The position numbers and the translations under genes are program-made. Below the pieces are notes generated by a model. That model worked only from the letters and a program-made list of their open reading frames with translations, made no database searches and was not told where the DNA came from. Shown one piece after another: positions 44,434 through 52,670 of a DNA stretch of 64,000 nucleotides. Position 1 is the first letter of the stretch. Each line of letters begins with the position of its first letter. Source of the DNA: Deltaproteobacteria bacterium (lineage in GTDB: Bacteria > Desulfobacterota > Desulfuromonadia > Geobacterales > Geobacteraceae); assembly GCA_021848385.1 (NCBI GenBank), contig JAJZUQ010000008.1, positions 1 through 64,000 of the forward strand, given 5' to 3'.

Positions 44434-45948
44434 CTACGGAACGATCTTGACGTTGTCTTTCCCTTGGAAAGAGTGGCCGTCGTAGGTCTGTCCTGTCAGC
44501 GTTGCTTCCACACTCTGGTCGGTGAGTGTCAGTGCCTCGGTGCTGACATGTACGACGAGATCGGGAAAGCCGTCGCTGTTCACATCCGTTATGGACGCCA
44601 TCGGTGTGCCGTTTCCCTTGAGCTTCACCTGCGCACTTGCCAGGCTCACCGTCGTCGGGTCCACCTCTGTCGTATCGAACGTGGCGCTGCCGAGGATCGC
44701 CACCGGTACGGTGCCGTTCGAGCCAAGGTTGATGCTGTTTGGGTATGTGTCCGGTTTGATGTCGATGGCTACATTCACAATGCCGTTGGCGTCGCTCAGC
44801 ACCCATGCGTCCAAGGTGTTTGATGGGGTGCCGAACAGCACGGTGGCCCGATTGTTTGAGGGATCGTAAACCGCCATATTGGGGCCAGACCACCCGGAAG
44901 GTGGCCCACCGTTTACGGAAAGCTTCGTCCATGCCCAGGCGAGGGATGGGCTCTCTCCTGCTACTGGATTGACTATCCACAGGTCATAACTGCCTGCATT
45001 GTACATCACTAGCATCATCCGGTTGGTAGCAGGATCATAAAAGGCTGGTGGTCCACTGAAGGGAGTCGGAGCTCCAGGAGAGCCTTCGGCAATCAGGTTC
45101 GTCCATACCGGTGTCGCCACGTTCGTGGCATTGCTTAATCCCCAAACCGCATTCGTCCAGGCACCGCTTCCCTGAGCCGATCCCCCTGCGACAAACAAGC
45201 GATTGCTGGCGGCATCATATGCATAGCTAGGACTGTATTGTCCAGGTGGCGGACCACTCACAGGGAAAAGCTGTGTCCATACGGGAGAACCTCCCAGACC
45301 ATCGGCGTTTGACAACACCCAGGCATCAGAATAGGTGCTTCCTCCCCAACCGCCGCCGTTATGTCCGCCAAAGATGACCATGCTGTTGGTTGCCGGATCA
45401 TAGCCTGCTGCGACCGAATGGCGGGGTGATGGCGATGCTCCCGCCGGATTTAGTGAAATCCATTCGGGAGTCCCACCGGTGCCGTTCGCATTCGTCAACA
45501 CCCAGACACCATTGCTGACAGGCAAACACCCCCCCACACATCCGCCGAAAACGATCATTCTGTTGTGTGCGGAATCGTACACCGCCGCATGGTTTCCCGT
45601 ATTGGGCGGTGGTGAACCACTGGGCAACAGTTTTGTCCATGCAGGGGTTCCGCTCAGGCCGTTCGCCCCCGTCAGGACCCAGACTTCATCTTGCCAGCTT
45701 GTGTTACGCCCGTAGAGAATCAGCCGGTTTGTAGCGGCATCGAGAACCACTGCGGGCTGGTACATAACCAGTTGAGGCGGGCCACCGGTTGGAGCCAATT
45801 TTAACCAACTCTGTGCGTTTGCATTGCCTGTAAATGTTGGGAGGGTGAAAAGCATTCCCCCTATTCCGACCAGTACCGTGCATATTTTGGCTATGGCTCC
45901 CATTGTAACTATTCGGATTCTTTCCCATCTGCCTTCTATTTGGCTCAT
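44434..45948 (-). CDS. Secreted Kelch-type beta-propeller protein with C-terminal cell-surface domain
   Basis: Signal peptide; repeated YDPATNxMxxFGG/VWVLxxAxGxGGTPxWxxL units; IDIKPDTYPNSINLGSNGTVPVAILGS. Confidence 0.8.
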   Translation of the reverse strand: MSQIEGRWERIRIVTMGAIAKICTVLVGIGGMLFTLPTFTGNANAQSWLKLAPTGGPPQLVMYQPAVVLDAATNRLILYGRNTSWQDEVWVLTGANGLSGTPAWTKLLPSGSPPPNTGNHAAVYDSAHNRMIVFGGCVGGCLPVSNGVWVLTNANGTGGTPEWISLNPAGASPSPRHSVAAGYDPATNSMVIFGGHNGGGWGGSTYSDAWVLSNADGLGGSPVWTQLFPVSGPPPGQYSPSYAYDAASNRLFVAGGSAQGSGAWTNAVWGLSNATNVATPVWTNLIAEGSPGAPTPFSGPPAFYDPATNRMMLVMYNAGSYDLWIVNPVAGESPSLAWAWTKLSVNGGPPSGWSGPNMAVYDPSNNRATVLFGTPSNTLDAWVLSDANGIVNVAIDIKPDTYPNSINLGSNGTVPVAILGSATFDTTEVDPTTVSLASAQVKLKGNGTPMASITDVNSDGFPDLVVHVSTEALTLTDQSVEATLTGQTYDGHSFQGKDNVKIVP

Positions 45949-46231
45949 CCTGAGGTCTCCTTTCCTCTGCGCTGAATCAATCTGCCGAAAGTTATCACTG
46001 TTGCAAAGCAGTCATCTTGGCGACTGGAGAAAATCAGCATTAACAGTGTCGGCTGGCCATGTGTCTCCGAGTTCCGTGCTGCATCTATTGGGGTGTGCAA
46101 GGACAGCTCTTCCCGTGATATTCTGCCACCAATGCCCCATCGGTATCACCTCCTTTCCCGAATCTGTCGGTATGAAGGATTTGGAATCTTTGCATACTTG
46201 AATAATAAAAGGTCGAACTGTCGAAAGTGAT

Positions 46232-46316
46232 CTCTTCGGCAGCTCGGCCATCTTTCCCGGAACAAAGATCCGTCGCTTTCCGACTCCTCCTCGCGGAGGG
46301 TCAGCGTTTCGGTGGA
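46232..46316 (-). ncRNA. GEMM-I-like (cyclic-dinucleotide) riboswitch candidate in the 5' leader of the Kelch-type gene
   Basis: minus strand: gaaacgctgaccctccGCGAggaggagtcggaaagcgacggatctttgttccgggaaagatggccgagctgccgaa; GNRA-capped stem, AAAGC core, GCCGAGCTGCCG receptor-like end. Confidence 0.55.
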
Positions 46317-46530
46317 ATCAAATACATTGGTTTTTGTTAATTTTTATCACTATACCTTTTTGTCCTACCTTGTCAAGGCTGACGGGGCACCGCTATCCTT
46401 CTAACTTCCTGTATTATTTGCCCTGCCGATTCCCAACAGTTCATGGATTGCCCGGTACGATTTTTTCAAAAAACCATTCCGCATCAGGGTGGGTGTGGTA
46501 TAAGAAGGACATCACGTACAGAGGTCTGCC

Positions 46531-47049
46531 ATGAAAGAAAAAATCGAGATCATCCAGGCCGACATCACGAAACTTTCCGTAGATGCCATCGTCAATGCGG
46601 CCAACAATACCCTGCTGGGCGGCGGAGGGGTAGACGGTGCCATCCACCGGGCGGCGGGGCCGGATTTGGTGGCGGAATGCGCCACCTTGGGCGGCTGCGC
46701 CACGGGGGACGCGAAGATCACGAAGGGGTATAAACTACCGGCACGGCATGTGATCCACACGGTGGGGCCGGTCTGGCACGGGGGGAACGAGGGGGAGCCG
46801 GAGTTGCTGAGAAGCTGCTACCGCCGCTGCTTCCAGGTGGCCCACGACAATGGCCTGACCTCCATCGCCTTCCCCGCCATCAGCGCCGGGGTCTTCGGCT
46901 ATCCCATGACGAAGGGGTGCGAGGTCGCCATGACGGAGGCGAAAACTGCCCTGGCCGCCAATCCGAAACTGGAGCGGGTGGTGTTCGTCCCCTTTAGCGC
47001 CGAGGCGTTGGCCATTTACCGGGAAACGTTCGAAAAGGTCTTCGCGTGA
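46531..47049 (+). CDS. Macro-domain protein (O-acetyl-ADP-ribose deacetylase-like)
   Basis: [34 protein letters not shown]. Confidence 0.95.
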
Positions 47050-51575: not shown

Positions 51576-52670
51576 TTATGGTGTGTCATCTCCAGTTGTG
51601 TGGACGGTAACCCGGTTCTTTCCTTCCTTTTTACTTACGTACAAAGCCCCATCCGCCTTCATAATCACTGTCCGGATGTCGGACCCATCCTCGGGAAAGG
51701 CTGCCACGCCGGCCGATATGGTGGTGGAGAGCTGTGTACCTTCGAAATCGAAAGGGGCCGAGGCCAGGTTGGAGACAATGCGGCGGACGGCGATGAGGCT
51801 TGATTCCTTGCTGCTCCCGGTAAACATGACGAGGAATTCGTCTCCACCGTAACGGGCCGCGATGTCGCTCGAACGGATATTCCGGTTGATGGTCCGGGCA
51901 ATATGCCGGATCATTTCGGTGCCGGCGAAATGGCCATAGCGATCGTTGATCTTCTTCAGGTTGTCTGCGTCCAGCATACAGATGGTCAAGGTCGTACCGC
52001 TCCGTTGTGCCAGTTCTTTGTGGGCTGCAGCCAGATTGAGAAAATTGCGCATGTTGTGGAGGCCGGTGATATCGTCGGTAAGGGAGAGCTGTTCCGCCAG
52101 CTGCCGGGCGTTTTCCGCTTCGCTGGAGAGCATGGCGCCCAGGTGGGCTATGAGCATGAAGGGGAGTATTTCCAGGATATTGGAAACGAAGGTCGCTTCA
52201 AAGATATTGAGAGAAACCTCTTCGGCCGCGAGAAAAATATAGGCTATTATCGCAATGGCGGCCATTACGTAAGTAACCTTGCGTGCTTGAGTCAGAGAGG
52301 TGGCCATCAGGACAAGGTATATGAGAGAGATGAACGGGCTGTCCGTCTTGCCGGTCAGCCAGCTGACCGCGATGGTAAAGGAGAGGAAGACAATCAGGTC
52401 GATGAAGGTCTTGACAGGGCCCGATGTTTCCGGCTGCATGACATGGCGGGTGATCACATTGTACACCAGCAGGAAGATGCAGCAGAATGCGAGGTAGATG
52501 ATTTCGGTAGTATTGGAGGGGAGGATCGCGATGTCCAGGGCAACCAGGGCGATGAGGAACCAGGAGATGTTCCCCATGATCCGGTCGTACCTGACGTAGC
52601 GGGAATGGGCTCCCCACGCGGGCCTGCTGCCGGGATCCACTTCTTCCATCGATTTACAGGCCTGCTTCAT
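51576..52670 (-). CDS. Membrane-anchored diguanylate cyclase (GGDEF)
   Basis: N-terminal multi-TM region; RYGGDEFLVMF active site. Confidence 0.92.
   Translation of the reverse strand: MKQACKSMEEVDPGSRPAWGAHSRYVRYDRIMGNISWFLIALVALDIAILPSNTTEIIYLAFCCIFLLVYNVITRHVMQPETSGPVKTFIDLIVFLSFTIAVSWLTGKTDSPFISLIYLVLMATSLTQARKVTYVMAAIAIIAYIFLAAEEVSLNIFEATFVSNILEILPFMLIAHLGAMLSSEAENARQLAEQLSLTDDITGLHNMRNFLNLAAAHKELAQRSGTTLTICMLDADNLKKINDRYGHFAGTEMIRHIARTINRNIRSSDIAARYGGDEFLVMFTGSSKESSLIAVRRIVSNLASAPFDFEGTQLSTTISAGVAAFPEDGSDIRTVIMKADGALYVSKKEGKNRVTVHTTGDDTP

Follow-up and report, generated by a model that had tools for sequence, protein, structure and literature searches.

The closest described systems to the element analysed here are the GEMM-Ib (3',3'-cGAMP) riboswitches of Geobacter (pgcA GSU1761, pilM and Gmet_0970) and the canonical c-di-GMP-I riboswitches of the Vc2 type (RF01051). 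According to extracts of the cited papers, on which the background here and below is based, the ligand contacts in Vc2 are G20, G21-C46, A47 and C92 (PMC7288161, PMC9049102), and those of the Geobacter cGAMP aptamer are A14, C15-G40, A41 and C75 (PMC6274999), while the pilM cGAMP aptamer of G. metallireducens contains a lower G-U pair, U15-G38 (PMC9262584). The change A20G converts the cGAMP-selective Gmet_0970 GEMM-Ib aptamer into one that selects c-di-GMP (PMC6456294, Figure 2 legend), position 20 being a selectivity factor and no absolute filter (PMC9262584). One riboswitch for cGAMP of this type has been reported to form an anti-terminator on ligand binding and to turn expression ON (PMC6456294). 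Vc2 numbering is used throughout, as we transferred it from the published contact lists.

An earlier note on the window, i.e. the whole stretch of 64 kb analysed here, had pointed to a GEMM-I-like candidate with an altered core on the minus strand, upstream of a Kelch-type gene. This element shares with the Geobacter GEMM-Ib riboswitches the three-helix aptamer, the C21-G46 and U22-G45 pairs of lower P2, A47, C92 and the overlapping intrinsic terminator, together with a predicted ligand-ON logic. However, it differs from them in having G20 instead of A20, in that its G23/A24 can pair with C44/U43 where they have an AAA/GRC internal loop, and in a P3 and a J1/3 strand that are closer to the subtype described below. 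With the canonical c-di-GMP-I riboswitches it shares G20, A47, C92, the GNRA loop and the P3 receptor layout, but it contains C21-G46 and U22-G45 instead of G21-C46 and C22-G45. It thereby corresponds, as a natural element, to the GEMM-Ib riboswitch that was engineered to carry A20G.

A GEMM-I riboswitch in an under-described variant

The sequence is present at the minus-strand position given by the earlier note, and its candidate is a genuine GEMM-I riboswitch. Using cmscan with the Rfam cut-offs, RF01051 (c-di-GMP-I/GEMM-I) matched 46315-46235(-) at full length (model positions 1-87 of 87), with 39.7 bits for a gathering score of 35 and an E value of 2.8e-4 in the search of the 64 kb against all 4227 Rfam families; no other family passed these cut-offs in the window. 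The covariance-model score is therefore significant, placing the altered-core element within the GEMM family. The minimum-energy fold of the aptamer alone is ordinary (z -0.50; 55 of 200 shuffles as good), so membership rests on the covariance model, which evaluates both sequence and structure, and on the relatives of the element. In all, it is a member of a known riboswitch class in an under-described variant, and automatic annotation with RF01051 merges cGAMP and c-di-GMP sensors. Our subtype model R1 gave it 61.8 bits, a value that is favoured, as are those of the whole G20/C21-G46 group, because R1 was built from that group plus the window copy.

In a permissive scan of 701 bases, RF03167 (c-di-GMP-I-GGC), which belongs to the same clan and has the same overall layout, outscored RF01051 (43.1 bits, E 9e-9), and the pair that is inverted in the window copy, G21-C46, is a ligand-contact pair in Vc2 (PMC7288161, PMC9049102, in extract). 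This could be expected of a separate variant class that recognises another ligand, in the manner of the c-di-GMP-I-GGC or -UAU variants. We nevertheless consider such a class very improbable, because 43.1 bits is below the RF03167 gathering score of 59 and because position 47 is A and not the G that, by our reading of the model consensus, the GGC label denotes. The RF03167 match was also considered as a sign of a GGC-type ligand and discarded, since RF03167 is likewise the top-scoring model on eight cGAMP-type copies from the same genome.

Table 1. Positions of the riboswitch, its parts and associated genes in the window.
Feature	Positions	Strand	Basis
Promoter-like site TTGACA-16-TATAGT (-35 46376-46371, -10 46354-46349)	46349..46376	-	11/12 consensus bases, sigma-70-like
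GEMM-I (c-di-GMP-I) aptamer	46235..46315	-	RF01051 39.7 bits; subtype model R1 61.8 bits
G20 (Vc2 numbering), base separating c-di-GMP (G) from cGAMP (A) sensors	46305..46305	-	Alignment to R1; role from PMC6456294 (extract)
C21, U22: 5' side of ligand-adjacent P2 base pairs	46303..46304	-	Alignment
GNRA loop GCGA of P2	46291..46294	-	Sequence, alignment
Single A, predicted P2 bulge	46285..46285	-	Minimum-energy fold and alignment A1
G45, G46: 3' side of ligand-proximal pairs	46280..46281	-	Alignment
A47, stacked between two ligand bases	46279..46279	-	Alignment; role from PMC9049102 (extract)
C92, pairs with second ligand base	46239..46239	-	Alignment; equals C75 of Geobacter cGAMP aptamer (PMC6274999, extract)
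Expression platform: intrinsic-terminator hairpin, arms 46249-46234 and 46227-46211, U-rich tract 46210-46201	46201..46249	-	Fold
42-codon open frame with strong, near-perfect Shine-Dalgarno (AAAGGAGGTGA, 46156-46146), between terminator and Kelch gene	46012..46140	-	
Downstream gene, 504-aa Kelch beta-propeller protein	44434..45948	-	PF24681 E 1.5e-40
Membrane GGDEF protein, Thr for Asp at Hypr selectivity position (GHFAGT, GGDEF motif)	51576-52670	-	

The GNRA loop (GCGA, 46294-46291), the AAAGC core and the GCCGAGCTGCCG strand were all found as previously described, and the element has the residue layout of RF01051, with a GNRA-capped P2, A47 in J2/3 and C92 in J1/3. Its P2 pairs continuously, as CUGACCCUCC/GGAGGAGUCGG with one bulged A, where its relatives have an internal loop of 2-3 nt; A23/A24 are replaced by G/A, one P2 base is lost, and J1/2 deviates as well (GAAACG), either containing a C.C mismatch or lacking one base. 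Core bases do differ, as the earlier note had claimed, but most of the differences belong to a naturally recurring subtype, with G20 and C21-G46, and are no isolated change. The altered specificity that the note had proposed holds, as a prediction, with respect to the eight cGAMP-type sister copies, but not with respect to the GEMM-I family overall. The specificity-determining residues, G20, A47 and C92, match those of an ordinary c-di-GMP riboswitch. With G20 and C92, c-di-AMP is unlikely as a ligand.

Sister copies in the same genome

Of the eleven RF01051 matches that the genome of origin contains at E values up to 10, nine exceed the cut-off. In a one-model alignment, all eight other above-threshold copies (8/8) show A20, C21-G46, U22-G45, A47 and C92, which is the cGAMP (GEMM-Ib) layout. 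The window copy possesses the same C21-G46 and U22-G45 lower P2, found also in published cGAMP aptamers, the same A47 and C92, and an overlapping terminator; however, it contains G at 46305 in place of A20, as do c-di-GMP-selective GEMM-I riboswitches, and is the only above-threshold copy of the genome with G20 on that scaffold. The tenth genomic copy, below threshold, has G20 with G21-C46, and the eleventh match (18.7 bits) looks like a chance one and was left out of the alignment. A G20 copy on a cGAMP-type lower P2 beside A20 sisters offers a clean native pair for separating the contributions of G20A and of the inverted C21-G46.

Two other arrangements were observed among these loci. L001 and L006 (G000:C6:20987-21281) are tandem cGAMP-type riboswitches about 140 bases apart, each with its own terminator-like hairpin, and L010 (G000:C31:33035-33119), a sub-threshold GEMM-I element with G20/G21-C46, immediately precedes a short open frame whose beginning is signal-like.

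Distribution of the G20/C21-G46 subtype

DNA searches with the aptamer retrieved relatives whose core reads AAAGCC..GGAAAGC and thus contains G20, C21-G46 and C22-G45, the best of them matching at 81-84% over about 63 bases. These elements (for example L048, L050, L054/L111, L138, L144 and L241) have the same P3 strand, GATGGCCGAGCTGCC, and also an overlapping terminator, but they differ from the window copy in having C22 and P2 arms of 11/11 bases, instead of U22 and 10/11. The window copy is itself divergent: its end branch is long (0.72), and none of 74 aptamers is more than 70% identical to it.

A subtype alignment of 25 members, window copy included, contained 22 invariant columns; 86.6% of its cells pair, and nine pairs change on both sides, a number reached by 8 of 500 shuffles. 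Its covariation score was 0.204, compared to 0.134 in shuffled alignments (0/500) and 0.074-0.115 when slid. Alignments A2-A4 were fitted to model R1. Covariation in P1 is visible in L142 and L139, where this helix is rewritten (AUAAAG/CUUUAU).

We then counted exact patterns, which miss variants, including that of the window itself, so that all counts are lower bounds. The subtype pattern (C or U at 22) appeared in at least 26 of the 141 genomes of the order and 15 of its 29 genera, with no genome of the 141 containing the reversed-pattern control, and the cGAMP-type pattern in at least 126 genomes and 28 genera. Both patterns occur together in 24 of the 26 genomes with the subtype, with only G128 and G129 showing no cGAMP pattern; since the subtype is nearly always found beside cGAMP-type elements, co-occurrence within the order cannot separate their ligands. 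On contigs, a pattern with a P2 gap of 10-16 gave 15 matches and covers shorter-P2 members only, as most members need 17-18. L140 (Eubacteriaceae) was dropped because the rest of the aptamer is missing, and L147 is the same element as L056 and does not count as a separate genome.

Tallies of distinct sequences showed a different composition inside and outside the genus. In four genomes of the genus, 112 rows were reduced to 62 distinct elements: 45 with A20/C21-G46/U22-G45, two with G20/C21-G46/C22-G45, one (the window copy) with G20/C21-G46/U22-G45 and 14 others with G21-C46. In 13 genomes from outside the genus (Nitrospiraceae, Desulfobulbaceae, Desulfobacteraceae and others), 99 rows gave 97 distinct GEMM-I elements, including at least one weak second match (L296:73-145); 76 of these are G20/C21-G46, a number that is inflated by at least the 13 bait elements for which the genomes were chosen, 14 are G20/G21-C46, three contain A20, always with G21-C46, and four are others. 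A20/C21-G46 was found in none of these 97 elements. Our search of openly accessible literature retrieved no named G20/C21-G46 group, and an earlier description in the founding papers of 2015 is possible.

A tree was built from 75 aptamers and 83 columns, excluding positions 20-22, 45 and 46, and leaving out identical rows and three weak partial matches from an initial 90. The 13 cGAMP-type rows formed one branch (98/90) with the window copy outside, among the G20/C21-G46 rows, in a weakly supported placement; forcing it into the cGAMP rows was not rejected on these 83 columns (p-AU 0.311). We tentatively propose, as a scenario with less than even chances, that G20/C21-G46 elements are a surviving intermediate toward cGAMP riboswitches: c-di-GMP sensors would first have acquired the inversion of G21-C46, on a wide scale in Nitrospirota and Desulfobacterota, and G20A would later have given rise to cGAMP sensing in Geobacter-like bacteria, with the window copy, one base away from the cGAMP layout at five positions, being perhaps bispecific. 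The window copy is possibly a relic of such an intermediate between c-di-GMP and cGAMP sensors, a hypothesis on its ancestry that is backed by the distribution and not by the tree. The wide G20/C21-G46 group offers a testable route for ligand change within a riboswitch class.

Expression platform and downstream genes

A scan of a 621-base region identified two promoter-like sites, compared to 0.8 expected in shuffles; from the site in Table 1, upstream of the aptamer, transcription would start near 46342. Both this site and the terminator lie where they would be expected. The terminator hairpin (46249-46211) has a predicted energy of -16.8 kcal/mol (z -2.87), with one of 200 shuffles as good, and is followed by an interrupted U tract, UUUUAUUAUU; a simple terminator scan returned no terminators, this hairpin included. 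Inspection by eye of 17 aptamers, among them that in the window, revealed in all of them (17/17) a matching arm and a U-rich tract within 45 nt downstream. The 5' arm of the terminator is the 3' strand of the aptamer, and because they share this strand both structures are mutually exclusive; therefore, the ligand should switch the gene ON. In the proposed mechanism, the nascent RNA would fold into the three-helix aptamer, and c-di-GMP would sit at the junction, contacted by G20 and C92 and with A47 intercalated between its two bases. Once bound, it would keep the strand GGCCGAGCUGCCGAAG inside the aptamer, allowing transcription of the downstream Kelch-type gene, whereas without ligand GGCCGAGCUGCCGAAG would pair with CUUUCGACAGUUCGACC to form the terminator.

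The Kelch-type gene and its spacing had been correctly recognised: its domain is confirmed (PF24681, E 1.5e-40), and about 285 nt separate the element from the ATG at 45948. The product is probably exported, judging from an N-terminal signal-like segment. It showed no full-length relative in the 58 related genomes searched; only its C-terminal ca. 120 amino acids have relatives, in three other genomes of the 58, plus one paralogue in its own genome. Likewise, no orthologous riboswitch locus was found in the 58 genomes through relatives of the Kelch protein. This lack of an orthologous locus, together with the long end branch, the J1/2 and P2 irregularities and an R1 score (61.8) at the low end of its class (about 57 to 92), is what a decayed riboswitch might show, still recognisable but having lost binding or switching. 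However, the three specificity residues, the GNRA loop, P3 and J1/3 are intact, as are the promoter and the overlapping terminator, and a J1/2 starting with G is also found in the strong-scoring members L048, L053 and L061; in our view, decay is quite improbable.

The 42-codon open frame in front of the Kelch gene may encode a leader peptide. This frame was rejected as a conserved part of the system, because its AAGGAGGTGA motif follows only six of the 138 distinct aptamers with at least 300 downstream bases, and the single NCBIfam match to the frame scores far under the cut-off. On the other side, a gene for a macro-domain protein (46531-47049(+); PF01661, E 9.4e-47) is divergent from the riboswitch promoter.

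Predicted ligand and GGDEF proteins

Family membership, the conserved contact residues, the overlapping terminator and the recurrence of the subtype are observed; as to ligand, direction and physiological target, we infer that this GEMM-I riboswitch of the G20/C21-G46 subtype is probably a c-di-GMP-activated transcriptional ON switch for the Kelch-type gene. This prediction is made because the A20G swap has been measured and the window copy shows the resulting combination naturally at the five contact-proximal positions. Its lower P2 matches the type on which the swap was measured, as it recurs in two published cGAMP aptamers, that of pilM (U15-G38) and the one in the Geobacter crystal structure (C15-G40); the comparison was made with these two in place of the Gmet_0970 sequence itself. 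In Geobacter-like bacteria, the separation of c-di-GMP from cGAMP signalling depends largely on one riboswitch letter.

Since G20 is a selectivity factor only, cGAMP may also bind the window copy, and a sensor of cGAMP, or a dual cGAMP/c-di-GMP sensor, could exist if the cGAMP-type lower P2 retained affinity for cGAMP despite G20. Indeed, this lower P2 is identical to that of the eight cGAMP-type copies, G20 acts as a selectivity factor and not as a filter (PMC9262584, in extract), sensitivity to both ligands has been reported for the omcST riboswitch of G. sulfurreducens (PMC6456294, in extract), and a GGDEF protein with a Hypr-type Thr is encoded 5.3 kb away. We still regard this alternative as unlikely, because A20G on a GEMM-Ib scaffold results in c-di-GMP selectivity (PMC6456294, in extract), G20/C21-G46 elements are abundant in 13 genomes without any A20/C21-G46, and the closest relatives have C22-G45, so that U22 may have arisen later by a C-to-U change, without cGAMP ancestry being required. 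A c-di-GMP ON switch is thus the reading we retain.

Two GGDEF proteins are encoded in the window, as had been noted. The genome yielded 17 GGDEF matches, of which 16 were inspected, the remaining match being a further fragment of one of the inspected proteins; the substrate motif was readable in 14 of the 16, with Asp at the selectivity position in 13 and Thr in one, the protein encoded at 51576-52670. Natural enzymes with Ser or Thr at this position contain exclusively GGDE[F/Y], according to the extract of PMC6456294. Following this rule, taken from the GacA paper, and given its Thr with a GGDEF motif and the conservation of this Thr, the 51576-52670 product is, from its sequence, a candidate cGAMP synthase of this genome. 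The Thr is kept in all ten sequences (10/10) found at E values up to 1e-40 in 28 genomes, its own included.
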